A stretch of 44,827 nt of DNA from a virus: positions 1-44,827 of the IMG/VR virus record IMGVR_UViG_3300047157_000151. The stretch is one strand, 5' to 3'. Below the pieces are notes generated by a model. It saw only the letters and a program-made list of their open reading frames with translations. It was not told the DNA's origin and searched no databases. This document shows positions 18,116 through 40,155 of this stretch, piece by piece (the stretch's first letter is position 1; every line of letters starts with the position of its first letter). The position numbers and the translations under genes were made by a program.

Positions 18116-19941
18116 TATTTCAAACCACAAACAGAGTGGCTACCACCAGAATCTTTTCCAGACTTATCAAAGTATGATGAGATTGCAATTGACTTAGAAA
18201 CTAAAGACCCAGATTTAAAATCAACAGGTTCAGGATCTGTATTGGTAATGGTAAAGTTGTAGGTATAGCTGTTGCTGTAGAAGGTTGGTCTGGATATTAT
18301 CCTATCGCACATGAAGGTGGTGGTAACATGGATAAGAATATGGTTATAAAATGGTTTAAGATGTACTAAATACACCTGCAATTAAGATATTTCACAATGC
18401 AATGTACGATGTATGTTGGATTAGGTCTATGGGCCTTAAAATACAGGGTAAGATAGTAGATACCATGATTGCTGGCTCTCTCGTGACGAGAATCGCTTTC
18501 GATATGATTTAGGTAGTTTGGGTCGTGATTACGTCGGAATAGGCAAAAATGAGGCTGTATTAAAGGAAACTGCAGCGCATTGGGGCATAGATCCTAAAGT
18601 CAGAGATGTATAAACTACCTGCAATGTATGTTGGAGAATATGCAGAGCAAGATGCAGTGTTGACTCTAAAATTATGGCAAGAAATGAAAAAAGAAATACT
18701 AATGAAGATGTACAATCTATCTTTGATCTTGAAACAGAACTATTTCCTTGCCTTGTTGATATGAGATTCTTAGGAGTACGTGTAGATGTAGAAGCAGCAC
18801 ACCAATTAAAAAAAAATTAGTTGCAGAGAAAAAAAGTTTACAAGAAGTTAAAAAAGAAACAGGAATAGATGTCAGATATGGGCTGCAAGATCAATTGCCA
18901 AAGTATTTGATAAATTAAAATTACCTTATGACGTAACTTTAAAAACTGAAGCACCAAGCTTTACTAAAAATTTTTTACAAGAACCATCCACATCCTGTTC
19001 AAAAGATTGCACATGCAAGAGAGATTAATAAATCACACACAACTTTTATAGATACCATATTAAAACATTCACATAAAGGTAGAATCCATGCAGAGATCAA
19101 TCAATTAGATCCGATCAAGGTGGTACAGTAACCGGTAGGTTTCAGTTACAACAATCCAAACTTACAGCAAATTCCTGCACGTAACAAGGAACTTGGACCT
19201 ATGATCAGAGTTTGTTTATACCAGAAGAAGGTTGTACTTGGGGTTGCTTTGACTACTCACAACAAGAACCTAGTCTTGTTACACACTATGCAGTCTTGAT
19301 GGACTTTATGGTGTTGATGAAGTTTTAGATGCATACAACGATGAACCAGATACAGACTTTCATACAATTGTAGCTGACATGGCTAACATACCAAGATCAC
19401 AAGCTAAGACAATTAACCTTGGTTTGTTTTATGGTATGGGTAAAAATAAATTACAAGCAGAGCTAGGTGTATCTAAAGAAAATGCTGAAGATTTATTTAG
19501 AACGTATCATGACAAAGTACCTTTTGTTAAAATGTTAATGGAAAGTGTAATGCGTAGAGCACAGACAAAGGTCAGAGTTAGAACTTTACTTGGACGTAGA
19601 TGTAGGTTTAATTTATGGGAGCCTAACAGTTTGGTATACATAAAGCTTGACTCACGAAGATGCGTTCACGGAACATGGACCAGGGATCAAAAGAGCTTTT
19701 ACATACAAAGCATTAAATAAATTAATACAAGGATCAGCAGCTGATATGACTAAAAAAGCTATGGTTGATTATACAAAGAAGGTATCATACCGCATATACA
19801 AGTACATGATGAACTTGATATATCGGTCAAGATGATGGTAATGCAGATAAAGATAAAAGAAATTATGGAGTCTGCAGTTGAACTAGAAGTACCTAACAAA
19901 GTGGACTATGAATCTGTCCTAATTGGGGTAATATAAAATGA
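18107..19941 (+). CDS. Family A (Pol I-type) DNA polymerase with 3'-5' exonuclease, many frameshifts
   Basis: About 600 residues after frame correction. The exonuclease domain is first: EIAIDLETKDPD (Exo I, D and E), FHNAMYDVCW (Exo II) and YVGEYAEQDAVLTLKL (Exo III). The polymerase domain carries motif A FDYSQQEPRL near 19250, motif B RSQAKTINLGLFYGMG at 19393-19440, an RTLLGRRCRFN thumb/fingers segment, LNKLIQGSAADMTKKAM, and motif C VHDELD near 19808. All catalytic Asp/Glu residues are retained. At least ten single-base shifts break it and the likely start codon is followed by an in-frame TAA, so the start at 18107 is tentative. It ends at TGA 19939-19941. Confidence 0.88.
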
Positions 19942-22535: not shown

Positions 22536-22754
22536 TTAAATAATCTTGTCAACCTTACAAGAAAATTTTGTATAAGCTTTAATACTATTGGTCCATTCTG
22601 GATCAAAGCTGGCCATCAATTTATGAGAATAATCATAGCCGTAGACTATACAAGAACTATAGTCATCAAATAATATCTGAGGTGTAGGTATAACCTTGCA
22701 TTGATGAGACGCAAGTTCACTACACAAAACCATTAATAAAACCATTTTTGTCAT
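22536..22754 (-). CDS. Small exported Cys-containing protein on the opposite strand
   Basis: Minus-strand frame starting ATG at 22754: MTKMVLLMVLCSELASHQCK looks like a short signal peptide, followed by VIPTPQILFDDYSSCIVYGY and TNSIKAYTKFSCKVDKII. Four Cys in the mature part suggest disulphides. The upstream TTG at 22760 is an alternative start. It is a lone leftward gene inside the rightward replication block and its start codon lies beside the -35 box of the rightward promoter at 22754. The pattern fits small secreted marine phage proteins of unknown function. Confidence 0.6.
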   Translation of the reverse strand: MTKMVLLMVLCSELASHQCKVIPTPQILFDDYSSCIVYGYDYSHKLMASFDPEWTNSIKAYTKFSCKVDKII

Positions 22755-22781
22755 TGACAATCCTACAAATTATTCTATATT
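22754..22781 (+). promoter_or_regulatory. Sigma70-like promoter for the regulator/zinc/alpha-CTD gene group
   Basis: TTGACA at 22754-22759, 16-bp spacer, TATATT at 22776-22781, about 25 bases before ATG 22807. This would serve the group of small regulatory genes running to 25088 independently of the promoter at 12.7 kb. Confidence 0.55.
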
Positions 22782-23206: not shown

Positions 23207-23641
23207 ATGGTCAGTGAACTAGATAGAGCCTATATTGCAGGGCTTTTTGATGGAGAAGGAACTATACATTTTAAACGTGGAATGGAGAAGAAAAAGAAAC
23301 ATAAGAATAAACCTGGGTATAGATACTCAAATAGTTTGAGATTAAGTATGGAGATTGCAATGACTGATGAATCAGTTTTAAGGTGGTTACATCAGACTTT
23401 AGGGATTGGAACTTTAAATAAAAAACCTCGTAAAGGTTTGCGTAAAGATGGTACACCTTACTTGATGCAGTATAGATGGAGAGCAACCTTTAGAGATGCT
23501 TATTTAGTCTGTCTATATTTATGGCCCTTTGCTCATACAAAGTTGCCGAAGATACAACAAATAATAGAACACTATGCTAAACAAAAATTAGATTGTGAAG
23601 TAATAGATTTAAATGGATATAAAACAATGAAAGGCATATGA
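23207..23641 (+). CDS. LAGLIDADG-type homing endonuclease-like protein
   Basis: 144 residues. YIAGLFDGEGTI at residues 9-20 is a clear LAGLIDADG motif with the catalytic acidic residue, followed by a typical beta-sheet region (SLRLSMEIAMTDESVLRWLH) and TLGIGTLNKKPRKG. Only one motif is seen, so it would act as a homodimer. No intron or intein was found around it, so it is free-standing. Its stop overlaps the next gene's ATG (ATGA). Confidence 0.82.
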   Translation: MVSELDRAYIAGLFDGEGTIHFKRGMEKKKKHKNKPGYRYSNSLRLSMEIAMTDESVLRWLHQTLGIGTLNKKPRKGLRKDGTPYLMQYRWRATFRDAYLVCLYLWPFAHTKLPKIQQIIEHYAKQKLDCEVIDLNGYKTMKGI

Positions 23642-23989
23642 ATGACATAGAAAAATATAAAAGACTACAATCTTTTTGATTTTGTAAAAGAAGAAATAAA
23701 ATTAGTAGAGGATAAGCTAGTAGACCGTGCCTTAATGAAACGCGTCAGTGATTTAGAACTTTCCATAAGGTCTATGAATACATTACTAAATTTAGAATTA
23801 AAATATTTAAAAGATTTAGTAGTCTTATCTGAAGGAGATCTACTTAGAGTTCCAAACTTTGGTAGAAAATCTTTGAATGAAGTTAGGGAAGTATTAGCTG
23901 AGTTAAATTTAAAATTAAATATGAATCGAGAAGATCTTTTAAATAAAGTTCAAGTTGATTTAGGTGTTAATACAGATAATTATGTTTGA
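23638..23989 (+). CDS. Free-standing RNA polymerase alpha C-terminal-domain-like protein
   Basis: After removing one T from the T5 run at 23676-23680 the gene encodes about 116 residues: a charged helix, then a domain matching bacterial RpoA alpha-CTD. Corrected residues D38 and E40 correspond to E. coli D259/E261 (sigma-contacting 261 determinant). R44, N47, G75, K77, S78 and E81 correspond to R265, N268, G296, K298, S299 and E302 (DNA-binding 265 determinant), with identical spacing; C269 is Thr. RVPNFGRKSLNEV is the helix-hairpin-helix signature. No alpha N-terminal dimerisation domain is present. It probably binds promoter DNA and/or sigma to redirect host RNA polymerase. An alternative start is ATG 23735 (84 aa, intact as given). 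Confidence 0.85.
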
Positions 23990-24142
23990 TAGAATAGTAT
24001 ATAATAGTCTTCATTTTATAATGAAGTATGCAGGTCAACTTAACTCTTGGGCATGGAGAAAACACACTAAGACTTAAGAACTAAACAACAAATTGAGAAC
24101 GTAACCAAGAATATGTTAAGAGAATTAAAAAAGAAGTTATGA
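23982..24142 (+). CDS. Small basic protein, one frameshift
   Basis: ATG 23982 overlaps the alpha-CTD gene's end. MFDRIVYNSLHFIMKYAGQL and NSWAWRKHTK are followed, after a shift near 24070, by DLRTKQQIENVTKNMLRELK and TGA at 24140-24142. About 53 residues. The conserved-looking YAGxxxxWAWRK core recurs in small marine phage proteins. Function unknown. The stop is inside the ATGATG start of the next gene. Confidence 0.55.
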
Positions 24143-24909
24143 TGAACGATAAAGATTGTGAAGAGTACGATAACATTGGACGTAAGATCCCTCTTAAAGA
24201 AAGGTTCCAATACGTTAGTGGTAAACAAATAACAGATGGTGATACTGGAAAAAGGGTTTACGAGATAAGTAATTATAGACTTCCGTCTGTGACTACTATA
24301 TTAGGAGCCACCAAAAACACAGATTTTTTAAAGAAATGGAAGGCTAAAGTTGGAGAATCAGAGGCGGAACGAATCAAAATTCATAGTAGTTCTAGGGGGA
24401 CAGCTATGCACAAATTCCTCGAATCTTATGTGGAAGGAGTTGGGTACGATGATCTTACAGGGATTGGACAGGAGGCGCGTCCCATGGCCAAAAAAATTAT
24501 TGAGAAGGGTTTATCGAATGTTACGGAATATTACGGCTCGGAAGTCACGTTGTTTTATCCTGGGTTGTACGCTGGGAGCACTGATCTCGTTTGTAACCAC
24601 AATGGTATGGAGACTATTGTAGACTTTAAACAATCTAATAGACCCAAGAAAGAAGAATGGATTGAAGACTATTACCTTCAAATTGCAGCATATGCCATGG
24701 CTCATGATTATGTATACAAGAGTAATATTCGTCAAGGATTGATAATGGTATGTACTCCTGACTTATTTTATCAGGAATTTCGGATCACGGATCATGAATT
24801 AAGGGCCTGGAAACATAAGTTCTTGAAGAGATTGGACATGTATCATGACCTAATAAATGATGAGAAGGAGAAGGCAAAAGTTAATATAACAGAGGAGGAT
24901 TTTAAATGA
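24139..24909 (+). CDS. PD-(D/E)XK nuclease, RecB/Cas4-like exonuclease family
   Basis: Intact 256 residues. SSSRGTAMHKFLESY near 85-99 provides the conserved His, YGSEVTLFYPGLYAGSTDLV near 129-148 the Glu and Asp, ETIVDFKQSNRPKKEEW near 155-171 the D-x-K, and DYYLQIAAYAMAHDY the QxxxY motif. All core residues of RecB-like nucleases are present. Such phage nucleases process recombination or replication ends or degrade host DNA. The stretch 24470-24600 is richer in G+C than flanking genes. It overlaps the next gene by 4 bases (ATGA). Confidence 0.88.
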   Translation: MMNDKDCEEYDNIGRKIPLKERFQYVSGKQITDGDTGKRVYEISNYRLPSVTTILGATKNTDFLKKWKAKVGESEAERIKIHSSSRGTAMHKFLESYVEGVGYDDLTGIGQEARPMAKKIIEKGLSNVTEYYGSEVTLFYPGLYAGSTDLVCNHNGMETIVDFKQSNRPKKEEWIEDYYLQIAAYAMAHDYVYKSNIRQGLIMVCTPDLFYQEFRITDHELRAWKHKFLKRLDMYHDLINDEKEKAKVNITEEDFK

Positions 24910-31509: not shown

Positions 31510-32570
31510 TGAATTTGAATAATATAGATATAAGTAAGCTACCTGCAGACGTACGTAAAGACATTTAAACAACTGCAAGTATGCATGCTGAAAAAAAGAT
31601 ACAGAATAAAGCTAAAGATGACTTTCTTGTCTTTTGTCAAATGTGTGTGGCCCGATTTTGTAGAAGGCTCCCACCACAGACACATTGCAAAAAAATTTAA
31701 TAAACTTGCAACAGGTGAAATAATCGATTAATAGTAACATGCCACCAAGGCATACAAATCAGAATTTGCATCTTTCTTTTACCAGCGTGGATGGTGGGCC
31801 GTGATCCAAAGTTAAAGATCATTCAAGCAACGCACACAGGAGAACTAGCCGTAAGGTTTGGTCGTAAAGCTAAAAACTTAATTGATAGTGAAGATTATAG
31901 AAAAATTTTTAAAACAACTTTACAAGAAGACTCCAAAGCCGCTGGTAGGTGGGAAACAGCACAAGGTGGTGAATATTTTGCAGCTGGTGTTGGCGGTGCA
32001 ATCACCGGACGGGGTGCTGACCTTATTAATCATTGATGATCCACACTCGGAGCAAGATGCAATGAGTCCAACAGCATTAGAGTCTGCTTATGAATGGTAT
32101 ACATCAGGACCACGACAACGTTTACAACCTGGTGGTAAAATTATTTTAGTTATGACAAGATGGTCTAACAAAGATTTAACAGGAAAATTATTAGCGAATC
32201 AAAAAGAAGCGAAAGCTGATCAGTGGCACGTGGTCGAGTTTCCAGCAATCATGGACCACGGATCAAAGAAAGCTAAACCTGTGTGGCCTGAGTATTGGAA
32301 GCTAGATGAGTTAGAGAAAGTCCAAGCAACACTGCCCACGGGCAAATGGAACGCACAGTGGATGCAAAACCAACAGTGAAGAAGGTGCAATTCTAAAACG
32401 TGAATGGTGGAGACGTGGAAGCAGATTGGATACCACCTACATCACGTCATACAATCTTATGATACAGCATTTTTAAAAAAAGAAACAGCTGACTATTCTG
32501 CTATTACTACTTGGGGTGTATTTTATCCTGATGAAGACTCAGGTGCTAATTTAATGCTACTTGATGAAGG
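31510..32570 (+). CDS. terL: Terminase large subunit, frameshifted and lacking its C-terminal nuclease half
   Basis: ATG 31510 reads MNLNNIDISKLPADVRKDI. Frame-corrected pieces give WPDFVEGSHHRHIAKKFNKL, PPRHTKSEF (Walker A-like loop, 31741-31767), ATHTGELAVRFGRKAKNLI, Walker B LLIIDDPHSEQDAMS near 32030, coupling motif MTRWSNKDLTG near 32155, WNAQWMQNP, and the first nuclease Asp in IQSYDTAF near 32456. The ATPase motor that packages DNA is recognisable. The sequence leaves the family after GANLMLLD (about 32570), where the remaining nuclease Asp residues should follow, and joins portal sequence. Shifts lie near 31570, 31600, 31635, 31735, 32020, 32375 and 32430. Confidence 0.85.
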
Positions 32571-34896
32571 ACCTGTAGAAGTTATCCCAGAAGAAGATGG
32601 TGGCAACATTAGACTTTGAACCAGGTGCAATCAATGTACCAGGAACAGAATCACACTTTGATAACTTAGCAGATATTTTACCAGAAGATATTTTAGAACC
32701 AATTGGAAACGAAATGGTTCAAAACTACATGGACTACAAATCTTCTAGAAAAGAATGGGAACAATCTTACACACAAGGATTAGATCTTTTAGGATTTAAA
32801 TACGAAAACAGAACAGAACCTTTTCAAGGAGCTTCAGGTGCAACACACCCAGTCTTGCAGAAGCAGTTACACAGTTTCAAGCTCAAGCTTACAAAGAATT
32901 ATTACCTGCAGTGATGGACCTGTTAGAACACAAGTTATAGGAATTAAAAATCCACAAACAGAACAACAAGCACAACGTGTTAAAGATTACATGAATTATT
33001 TAATCATGGATCAAATGAAAGAATATGAATCTGAATTTGATTCTATGTTATTTCATTTACCACTAGCAGGATCTACATTTAAAAAAGTTTACTACGACGT
33101 ACCACTTGGGAGAGAGTGGTATCGAAGTTTGTACCAGCGGATGAATTAATTGTTCCGTATACAGCTACCTCATTAGACGATGCGGAAGCAGTTATTCATA
33201 CCGTGAAAATTTCAGAAAACGAATTAAGAAAACAACAAGTCAATGGTTTCTATTCTGATGTAGATTAGGTCCTCCAGGTACAGATACTAATGGAGAGTTA
33301 TCTAAAAAAGAACGTGAATTAGAAGGAACTAAAAAAACAGGTAAGAACGAACCTGTTTATACTTTGTTAGAGTGTCATGTTAATTTAGACTTAGAAGGTT
33401 TTGAAGATGTTGGATGCAGATGGTGAACCAACAGGAATAAAATTACCTTACATCGTTACAGTCGAAGAAGGTAGTAGGAAAGTTTTGTCTATTAGACGAA
33501 ACTATGCGCCCGATGATCTAAAGAAAAATAAAATCCAATATTTTGTCCACTTCAAATTTCTGCCAGGACTAGGATTTTATGGCTTTGGACTCATTCACAT
33601 GATTGGCGGATTGAGTCAGAACGGCAACGGCGGCTCTCCGTCAATTATTAGATGCAGGAACATTATCAAACCTACCAGCAGGATTTAAACAAAGAGGTGT
33701 TAGAGTTAGAGATGAAGCATCACCAATACAACCAGGTGAATTTAAAGATGTAGATGCACCAGGTGGTAATTTAAGAGATGCATTCTTTCCATTACCATAC
33801 AAAGAACCATCTCAACATTATTACAATTAATGGGTGTTGTAGTACAAGCTGGTCAAAGATTCGCGGCTATTGCTGATATGCAAGTGGGTGATGGAAACCA
33901 AGGCGCTGCAGTTGGAACTACAGTTGCACTTCTTGAACGTGGTTCACGTGTTATGTCTGCTATTCATAAAAGATGTTACGCAGCAATGAAAAATGAATTT
34001 AAATTATTATCTAAAATTAGTTTCACAATACTTACCACCAGAATATCCTTACGATGTTGTAGGTGGTGCAAGAAATATTAAACAAGCTGACTTTGATGAT
34101 AGAGTAGATGTTATTACCAGTTGCAGATCCTAATATATTTTCAATGTCTCAAAGAATTACTTTAGCTCAAACACAATTACAATTGCAACATCAAATCCAC
34201 AATTACATAACATGTATCAAATATACAGAAACATGTATAATGCGATTGGTGTAAAAGATGTTGATGCAGTTTTACCACCACCTGCACCAATGCACCGATG
34301 GATCCAAGTTTAGAACACATAAATGCTTTGGGTGGAAAACCTTTTCAAGCTTTTCCTGGTCAAGATCACAGAGCACACATCACAGCTCACTTAAATTTTA
34401 TGTCAACTAACATGGTTAGAAATAATCCTGCTGTTATGGCTGCAATACAAAAAAATATTTAGAACACATTCAATTATGGCTCAAGAACAAGTTCAATTAG
34501 AGTTTAGAGAGCAAAACAATGCAGATGCAACAGATGCAACAGATGGCTGCAATGAATCCACAGATGCAACAACAGTTACAAATGTTAACAAATCAATTGA
34601 AGCAAGAAAAGCTGTGTTGATTGCTGAAATGACTGAAGAATTTATGAAAGAAGAGAATAAAATTACTTCACAATTTGATTCAGACCCACTATTAAAACTA
34701 AAATCACGTGAAGTTGACCTAAGAGCAATGGAAAATGAACGAAAAAAAGAAGCTGATGAAACAAAAGCAAGATTTTGATAGAGCAAAATTGATGCAAGCA
34801 AGAGAATTAGCTGAAGATAAGATGGATCAGAACGAAGAATTAGCAGAATTACGAGCTGGAGTTAGTCTTGCAAAATCTGGTGTAAAAAATGTCTAA
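32571..34896 (+). CDS. Portal protein, N-terminus missing at the junction, frameshifted
   Basis: Starts abruptly within acidic EGPVEVIPEEDGG, then LDFEPGAINVPGTESHFDNL, SSRKEWEQSYTQGLDLLGFK, TEPFQGASGATHPVL, MLFHLPLAGSTFKKVYYDVP, HFKFLPGLGFYGFGLIHMIG, GNQGAAVGTTVALLERGSRV, a helix after FQAFPGQDHRAHITAHLNFM, and a Gln/Met-rich coiled C-terminus ending KSGVKNV (TAA 34894-34896). This order fits podovirus-type portals, which form the dodecameric DNA gate. No start codon or ribosome-binding site exists at the junction. At least eight single-base shifts are needed. About 50 N-terminal residues seem lost. Confidence 0.82.
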
Positions 34897-39248: not shown

Positions 39249-40155
39249 ATGGCTATATCACGATCACAACTAGTTAAAGAACTAGAGCCAGGTTTGAATG
39301 CACTATTCGGCCTGGAATATAAACGGTATGAAAATCAGCATGCTGAAATTTATAACTGAGGAATCATCTGACAGAGCTTTTGAAGAAGAAGTTATGTTAT
39401 CTGGTTTCGCAAACGCACAAGTAAAAGGTGAAGGTTCTGGAGTTTCATTTGATGAAGCACAAGAAACTTTCACAGCTAGATACACTCACGAGACTGTAGC
39501 TTTAGCGTTCGCAATCACTGAAGAAGCGATTGAGGACAACTTGTATGATAGACTTGCGTCTAGATATACAAAAGCTTTAGCAAGATCTATGAGTAATGCT
39601 AAACAAGTAAAAGCAGTTGAACCATTAATTCAATGGTTTCAATAACTTTCACTTCTGGTGACGGTGTTGCTTTATTTAACTACATCTCACCCAACAGTAG
39701 CTGGAACTTTGCTAAACATTAGCAACTCAGCTGACTTAACGAAACTTCATTAGAGCAATCAATGATTGACATTGCTGCAAATGACTGATGAAAGAGGTTT
39801 AAGAATTGCTGCAAGAGGAGTAAAAATGATTATTCCTTCTGAGCTACAATTCACAGCTGAAAGACTTATGAAGTCTCAAGGTAGAACTGGAACAGCTGAT
39901 AATGATATCAATGCAATCGTATCTATGGGTATGGTTCCTCAAGGTTATAGAGTGAACAACTACTTAACTGATACAGATGCGTTCTATATCTTAACAGACG
40001 TGCCTAATGGTATGAAAATGTTCAACAGAGCACCATTGACAACTGCAATGGAAGGCGACTTCGATACTGGAAACGTAAGATACAAAGCTAGAGAAAGATA
40101 CTCTATTTGGAGTATCTGACCCTAGAGGTATCTTTTGCGTTCACCAGGAGCGTAA
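39249..40155 (+). CDS. Major capsid protein, frameshifted
   Basis: ATG 39249: MAISRSQLVKELEPGLNALF, GLEYKRYENQHAEIY, EESSDRAFEEEVMLSGFANA, ARYTHETVALAFAITEEAIE, DNLYDRLASRYTKALARSMS, SHPTVAGTLLN, IPSELQFTAERLMKSQGRTG, TADNDINAIVSMGMVPQGYR, VNNYLTDTDAFYILTDVPNG and FDTGNVRYKARERYSFGVSD, TAA 40153-40155. About 300 residues of HK97-fold-type capsid sequence. Position after scaffold and decoration genes supports it. Shifts near 39320, 39350, 39645, 39675, 39740-39775 and 40110. Confidence 0.88.

Follow-up and report, generated by a model that had tools for sequence, protein, structure and literature searches.

A freestanding RNA polymerase alpha-CTD in a phage genome and its possible action at host promoters

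Why would a phage encode the C-terminal domain of the RNA polymerase alpha subunit (alpha-CTD) as a separate gene, and what could this domain do once detached from the enzyme? The question is raised by an IMG/VR record of a marine phage, 44.8 kb long with a G+C content of 34%, hereafter the window, that is, the whole stretch of 44,827 nucleotides that was analysed. Genes for primase, helicase, DNA polymerase and terminase are present, and the terminase, DNA polymerase and primase identify it as a bona fide phage genome. The features of the locus are collected in Table 1.

Table 1. Features at and around the alpha-CTD gene, in window coordinates
Feature	Position	Strand	Basis or remark
Best sigma70-like promoter (TTGACA-16-TATATT) in a scan of 5.6 kb around the gene	22754..22781	+	Consensus match only
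LAGLIDADG-type free-standing endonuclease	23207..23641	+	PF00961 E 2.4e-6; phrog_5046 E 1.7e-17
Complete alpha-CTD gene (relatives: 117 aa)	23638..23989	+	Frame broken in the window record, 2 nt being missing near 23668
N-terminal region, a single long helix (residues 3-33), charged, candidate coiled coil	23638..23734	+	AlphaFold; heptads
Alpha-CTD core (PF03118)	23735..23923	+	R265/N268/G296/K298/S299/E302 and D259/E261 equivalents
Short helical C-terminal tail, model confidence low at the extreme end	23924..23989	+	AlphaFold
PD-(D/E)XK phage exonuclease, adjoins the alpha-CTD gene	24139..24909	+	phrog_298 E 1.8e-49

On the combined reading of profile, alignment and model, positions 23735-23989 are judged to encode a genuine RNA polymerase alpha-CTD. 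The 84-aa ORF found there matches Pfam RNA_pol_A_CTD (PF03118) with an E value of 3.9e-17 and 62.2 bits, and the full-length protein of a related contig (L002) reaches 64.5 bits, the cut-off being 23.8. This match is specific: HHH_5 gave no score, so that a reading as a generic helix-hairpin-helix fails. The significant PDB sequence matches are all RpoA chains, the best being the Caulobacter alpha-CTD (1.1e-17), and when the protein is aligned without gaps to the RpoA of Caulobacter and of E. coli, the residues R265, N268, G296, K298, S299, E302, D259 and E261 (E. coli numbering) are all matched, the DNA-contact set being R45, N48, G76, K78, S79 and E82 in the phage protein. Other positions depart from E. 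coli (Ser for D258, Thr for C269 and Gly for V287), and the 287 surface, which contacts activators, is unlike that of E. coli, with G at 287 and N at 317.

The AlphaFold model, built from an alignment of 46 phage sequences described below (the single-sequence model was poor), has a mean pLDDT of 89 and consists of a helix over residues 3-33 and a compact alpha-CTD. Foldseek superposes it at 0.8 A over 67 columns, with 54% identity, on 9zum, a Caulobacter alpha-CTD on AT-rich DNA, and at 0.7-0.9 A over 65-68 columns on 3n97, which holds E. coli alpha-CTD with sigma region 4, UP-DNA and -35 DNA; the alpha-CTD fold is thus predicted together with the geometry of its DNA-contact helix. A previous sequence-only reading had proposed a detached alpha-CTD with both its DNA-contact and its sigma-contact residues intact, and profile, alignment and model bear this out. 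The protein is not a full RpoA, as the N-terminal assembly and dimerisation domain (PF01193 and its insert) is absent from the 117-aa ORF; moreover, alpha-NTD (PF01193) found no match in the record (controls matched in 13 of 14).

How far does the gene extend? Intact 117-aa orthologues are found in three other contigs (L002 5968-6321, L003 2424-2777 and L004 774-1127), and in all of them the ATG overlaps the stop codon of the endonuclease gene, the overlap reading ATGA in the window. Translation from the window ATG at 23638 reaches a TGA after 13 codons, the window being 2 nt short relative to the three contigs about 30 nt 3' of the start (CTAC--AATC against CTACAGAATC). The gene had earlier been set at 23638-23989: its start is right in the relatives, with their 117-aa ORF, but in the window the reading frame over this interval is interrupted. 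Since further window indels relative to L003 disrupt two more small neighbouring ORFs, the deletion probably reflects an error in the reads or the assembly, a programmed frameshift being less likely. A programmed +1 frameshift at TTT TGA near 23677 was considered and ruled out, given that the relatives have the two extra bases and a single intact frame and that other indels break frames in the window.

The record as a whole seems to carry frequent indel errors. The DNA polymerase, terminase and putative portal and capsid regions are broken into short ORFs, the DNA polymerase frame is longer in L002 than in the window, and short-ORF or indel sites occur, for example, at 19075-19940, 22878, 23668, 24072-24121, 31882-33149 and 39298-40119.

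The earlier view of one unusual phage feature turns out to be too narrow, since freestanding phage alpha-CTD proteins form a broad class that databases already name, and of which this gene is one more case. A scan of IMG/VR with the 62-aa core recovered 60 contigs, from which 46 non-redundant proteins (L005 included) were aligned; all 46 match PF03118, and no full RpoA is among them. When the E. coli core served as the query of a second scan, 23 contigs were obtained; one had been found before, and the remaining 22 likewise have freestanding proteins, several being near-identical copies. About 65 distinct IMG/VR phage contigs carry such a domain. Among cultured phages, Bacillus phage Goe8 c00050, Ruegeria phage V16_23 and Microbacterium phage Mazun gp26 pass PF03118, and several other phage proteins are already called alpha-CTD in BFVD or UniProt. 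A lack of homologues in related phages would have refuted the sequence-only reading, but homologues exist in related and in unrelated phages. In the open-licence literature searched, no functional study of a freestanding phage alpha-CTD was found.

Several candidates fell outside this class. Erythrobacter phage vB_EliS-L02 ORF40 (OL955261; L009 31543-32064), which PMC9127768 annotates as an alpha-CTD, was rejected as a precedent, as it has no PF03118 match and its label is a probable misannotation. In INPHARED, two faecal "phage" records are whole or part RpoA on translation, and those of Salmonella and Acinetobacter are labelled rpoA where they have an annotation, none of them being a freestanding domain.

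The architectures of the family are diverse: the alpha-CTD lies C-terminal to unrelated N-terminal parts, or is N-terminal with a helical extension, or is fused to other domains, namely Sigma70_r4 (L055), HTH_3 (L030), HTH_23 (L029, L053), Mor-like (L051) and RHH (L052), the HTH_23, Mor and RHH matches being under the Pfam cut-off. In L055 (5566-6186) a sigma-region-4 domain, by Pfam match, and the alpha-CTD share a single chain, and in L229 (3524-4216) the alpha-CTD follows an N-terminal stretch that resembles sigma region 4 by eye and has no Pfam match. These fusions, together with the stretch in L229, point to transcription. The protein of Ruegeria phage V16_23 (L253 3932-4798) joins an alpha-CTD to a C-terminal part called "pyrophosphatase" in RefSeq and MazG-like by eye, and a related phage alpha-CTD in L161 (1019-1450) has Met in place of K298 (NFGRMSLKE), a naturally occurring change in the DNA surface.

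Could the gene be a non-functional remnant, or a host fragment that the phage happened to acquire? The frameshifted window copy and the sporadic carriage described below would fit this reading, but it is highly improbable and already largely refuted by intact, conserved orthologues. The three other contigs carry the gene intact with a dN/dS of about 0.15 (L002/L003 against L004), that is, under purifying selection, and R265 is invariant in all 46 highly divergent phage proteins. It is the sole invariant column outside the block N294-S299, whose conservation is inflated because the block is part of the search string NFGRKSLN, which recovered most of the proteins; R265 lies outside that string. 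In the same alignment N268 is kept in 33 rows and E302 in 42, and acidic residues occupy position 259 in 31 rows and position 261 in 30. A high-identity patch that spans the whole gene also speaks against a remnant. Between L003 and L004 the alpha-CTD gene is 96% identical (dS 0.12), against 73% (dS 1.0) for the upstream endonuclease and 83% (dS 0.64) for the exonuclease, and the patch of 87-98% identity, at L003 2340-2818, comprises only the alpha-CTD gene and short flanks within surroundings at 43-73%. By these comparisons, it looks as if the gene has recently been exchanged as a unit between related phages.

The genomic context gives no support to the suggested takeover locus: the gene is sporadic and sits in a replication and recombination module beside the exonuclease. 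Nor is it conserved at this position. An apparent synteny with the exonuclease in the alpha-CTD set was lost when searched from the exonuclease side, where an alpha-CTD lies within 4 kb of the phrog_298 exonuclease in only 1 of 80 exonuclease-bearing contigs (1 of 38 among the contigs that extend 2 kb or more to each side); the gene is thus accessory and sporadic in the window's phage group. Regarding the neighbours named earlier, the homing endonuclease holds by its LAGLIDADG match (Table 1), and Pfam finds no RHH domain in the supposed RHH regulator, the intact version included. The zinc protein has a DnaJ-like match (E 3.5e-6), but its score is under the curated cut-off of that family. The element at 22754-22781 is a possible, putative promoter of the 22807-23989 gene run.

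This setting gives rise to another reading, in which the protein would be a recombination or replication accessory, a minor-groove DNA-binding module for the exonuclease or annealing machinery with no promoter role. It would account for the position beside a PD-(D/E)XK exonuclease, for the overlap of the alpha-CTD gene with the exonuclease stop codon in L012 and L016, and for neighbours that, across the family, include exonucleases, ssDNA-annealing genes, Sak4, RecE, Erf and SSB, besides terminase genes. We take it as a serious rival but consider it unlikely: the exonuclease does not need an alpha-CTD, since 1 of 80 exonuclease relatives carries one, roughly two thirds of the family retain the acidic residues that face sigma, and the fusion partners are transcription-factor domains. 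Furthermore, phage regulators are often located in early operons of the recombination type.

The N-terminal part had been described as a charged helix of about 33 residues in place of the dimerisation domain, and the model agrees, with a helix at 3-33 (block pLDDT 86-95) and no alpha-NTD. Its heptad a/d positions are occupied by Y7, L10, F14, V17, I21, V24 and L28 (p = 0.016 against shuffles), and the heptads are weaker in two divergent relatives of like architecture (p = 0.06 and 0.12). We infer dimerisation from heptads that are clean in the window-type helix and weaker in those two relatives. Five relatives (L011, L013, L022, L026 and L028), three of them in the window's syntenic phage group, have an N-terminal alpha-CTD with a helical-looking C-terminal extension and no N-terminal helix.

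What, then, could such a protein do? As previously proposed, the phage appears to lack an RNA polymerase of its own: no single-subunit enzyme (with T7 as positive control), beta subunit, alpha-NTD or sigma region 4 was detected in the record, which may be incomplete and whose indels can hide genes, and the phage therefore probably uses the host enzyme. We favour a promoter role, on the strength of DNA-facing and sigma-facing surfaces that appear intact, of the transcription-factor-domain fusions found elsewhere and of the T4 and phiKMV-like precedents discussed below. Against it stand the accessory status of the gene, its recombination neighbours, the different 287 surface and the lack of UP enrichment. 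UP elements had been expected at A/T-rich phage promoters; the six best sigma70-like sites have an upstream A+T content of 60-84%, where the genome averages 66%, and thus show no distinct UP-element signal. A lone alpha-CTD is also generally understood to be a weak DNA binder without its tether to RNA polymerase.

The best explanation, in which from sequence and model our confidence is evenly balanced, is that the detached alpha-CTD, probably as a dimer, works in trans at the promoters of host RNA polymerase. Expressed from the replication and recombination operon, two copies would be paired by the N-terminal helix into a mini-alpha dimer showing two alpha-CTDs, and at promoters the dimer would contact the minor groove of A/T-rich upstream DNA, beside sigma70 region 4, and so influence in trans the polymerase of the host, on which the phage relies. 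The position of the host alpha-CTD would thereby be occupied or displaced, and the set of favoured promoters altered. Competition with the host domain and recruitment to phage promoters appear about equally likely.

The competition branch of this explanation, taken alone, amounts to a dominant-negative decoy that would titrate activators or UP elements off host RNA polymerase and shut host genes off, with no use at phage promoters. A free domain would compete without any tether. In addition, the alpha-CTD is a known phage target, as T4 ADP-ribosylates Arg265 of host alpha and Rac of phiKMV-like phages cuts the domain off (PMC2988021, PMC7552054), the host domain being disabled in both cases. 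On the other hand, the 287 surface is unlike its E. coli counterpart, and we hold a pure decoy to be rather unlikely. Hosts of the SAR11 type, moreover, have few activators.

Such a host is plausible here, on the basis of a distant kinship with pelagiphages (one window structural protein is 34% identical to its counterpart in Pelagibacter phage HTVC027P, in which no alpha-CTD was found) and of Pelagibacteraceae rpoA sequences, which are the nearest bacterial rows by path in a 64-column tree. As most forks of that tree are unresolved, a Pelagibacteraceae origin is only a lead.

A wider proposal, possible although doubtful, is that the alpha-CTD has repeatedly been adopted by phages as a portable module: in this pelagiphage-like lineage a coiled coil would replace alpha-NTD, the mini-alpha dimer would act in trans at host RNA polymerase promoters, takeover would proceed by replacing the host domain instead of modifying or cleaving it, and the cassette would be swapped between phages. 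Should the protein behave as its residues imply, one of the polymerase's own domains, in copy, would serve phages to reprogram the host enzyme. The breadth of the family (dozens of divergent phages, fusions to sigma region 4 and HTH domains, an invariant R265) makes a cheap general test feasible in E. coli or Bacillus, for which the cultured phages Goe8, V16 and Mazun are usable, and the natural alpha-CTD variants are a potential source for promoter engineering.

Among known systems, the RpoA of Pelagibacteraceae and Caulobacter shares with the phage protein the fold, the DNA-contact residues, D259/E261 and the FGRKSLNE motif, at 53-60% identity, whereas the phage gene is separate, without alpha-NTD or linker, and has an N-terminal helix of its own. 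With the four SAR11 RpoA sequences examined it shares the string RSMN, with Met at 267, where the other alphaproteobacteria compared have Ala (RSAN). Other freestanding phage alpha-CTDs are alike in that the domain resides in a phage and alpha-NTD is not seen, but they have other accompanying parts and are 15-33% identical in structure alignments. T4 AsiA and MotA, whose folds are unrelated to alpha-CTD, are likewise small phage proteins that redirect host RNA polymerase at the face formed by sigma region 4 and upstream DNA, but no sign of sigma remodelling was seen for the window protein. Finally, T4 Alt/ModA and the Rac of phiKMV-like phages represent strategies aimed at host alpha-CTD function (PMC2988021, PMC7552054), but they modify or remove the host domain, whereas the phage described here encodes a copy of it.
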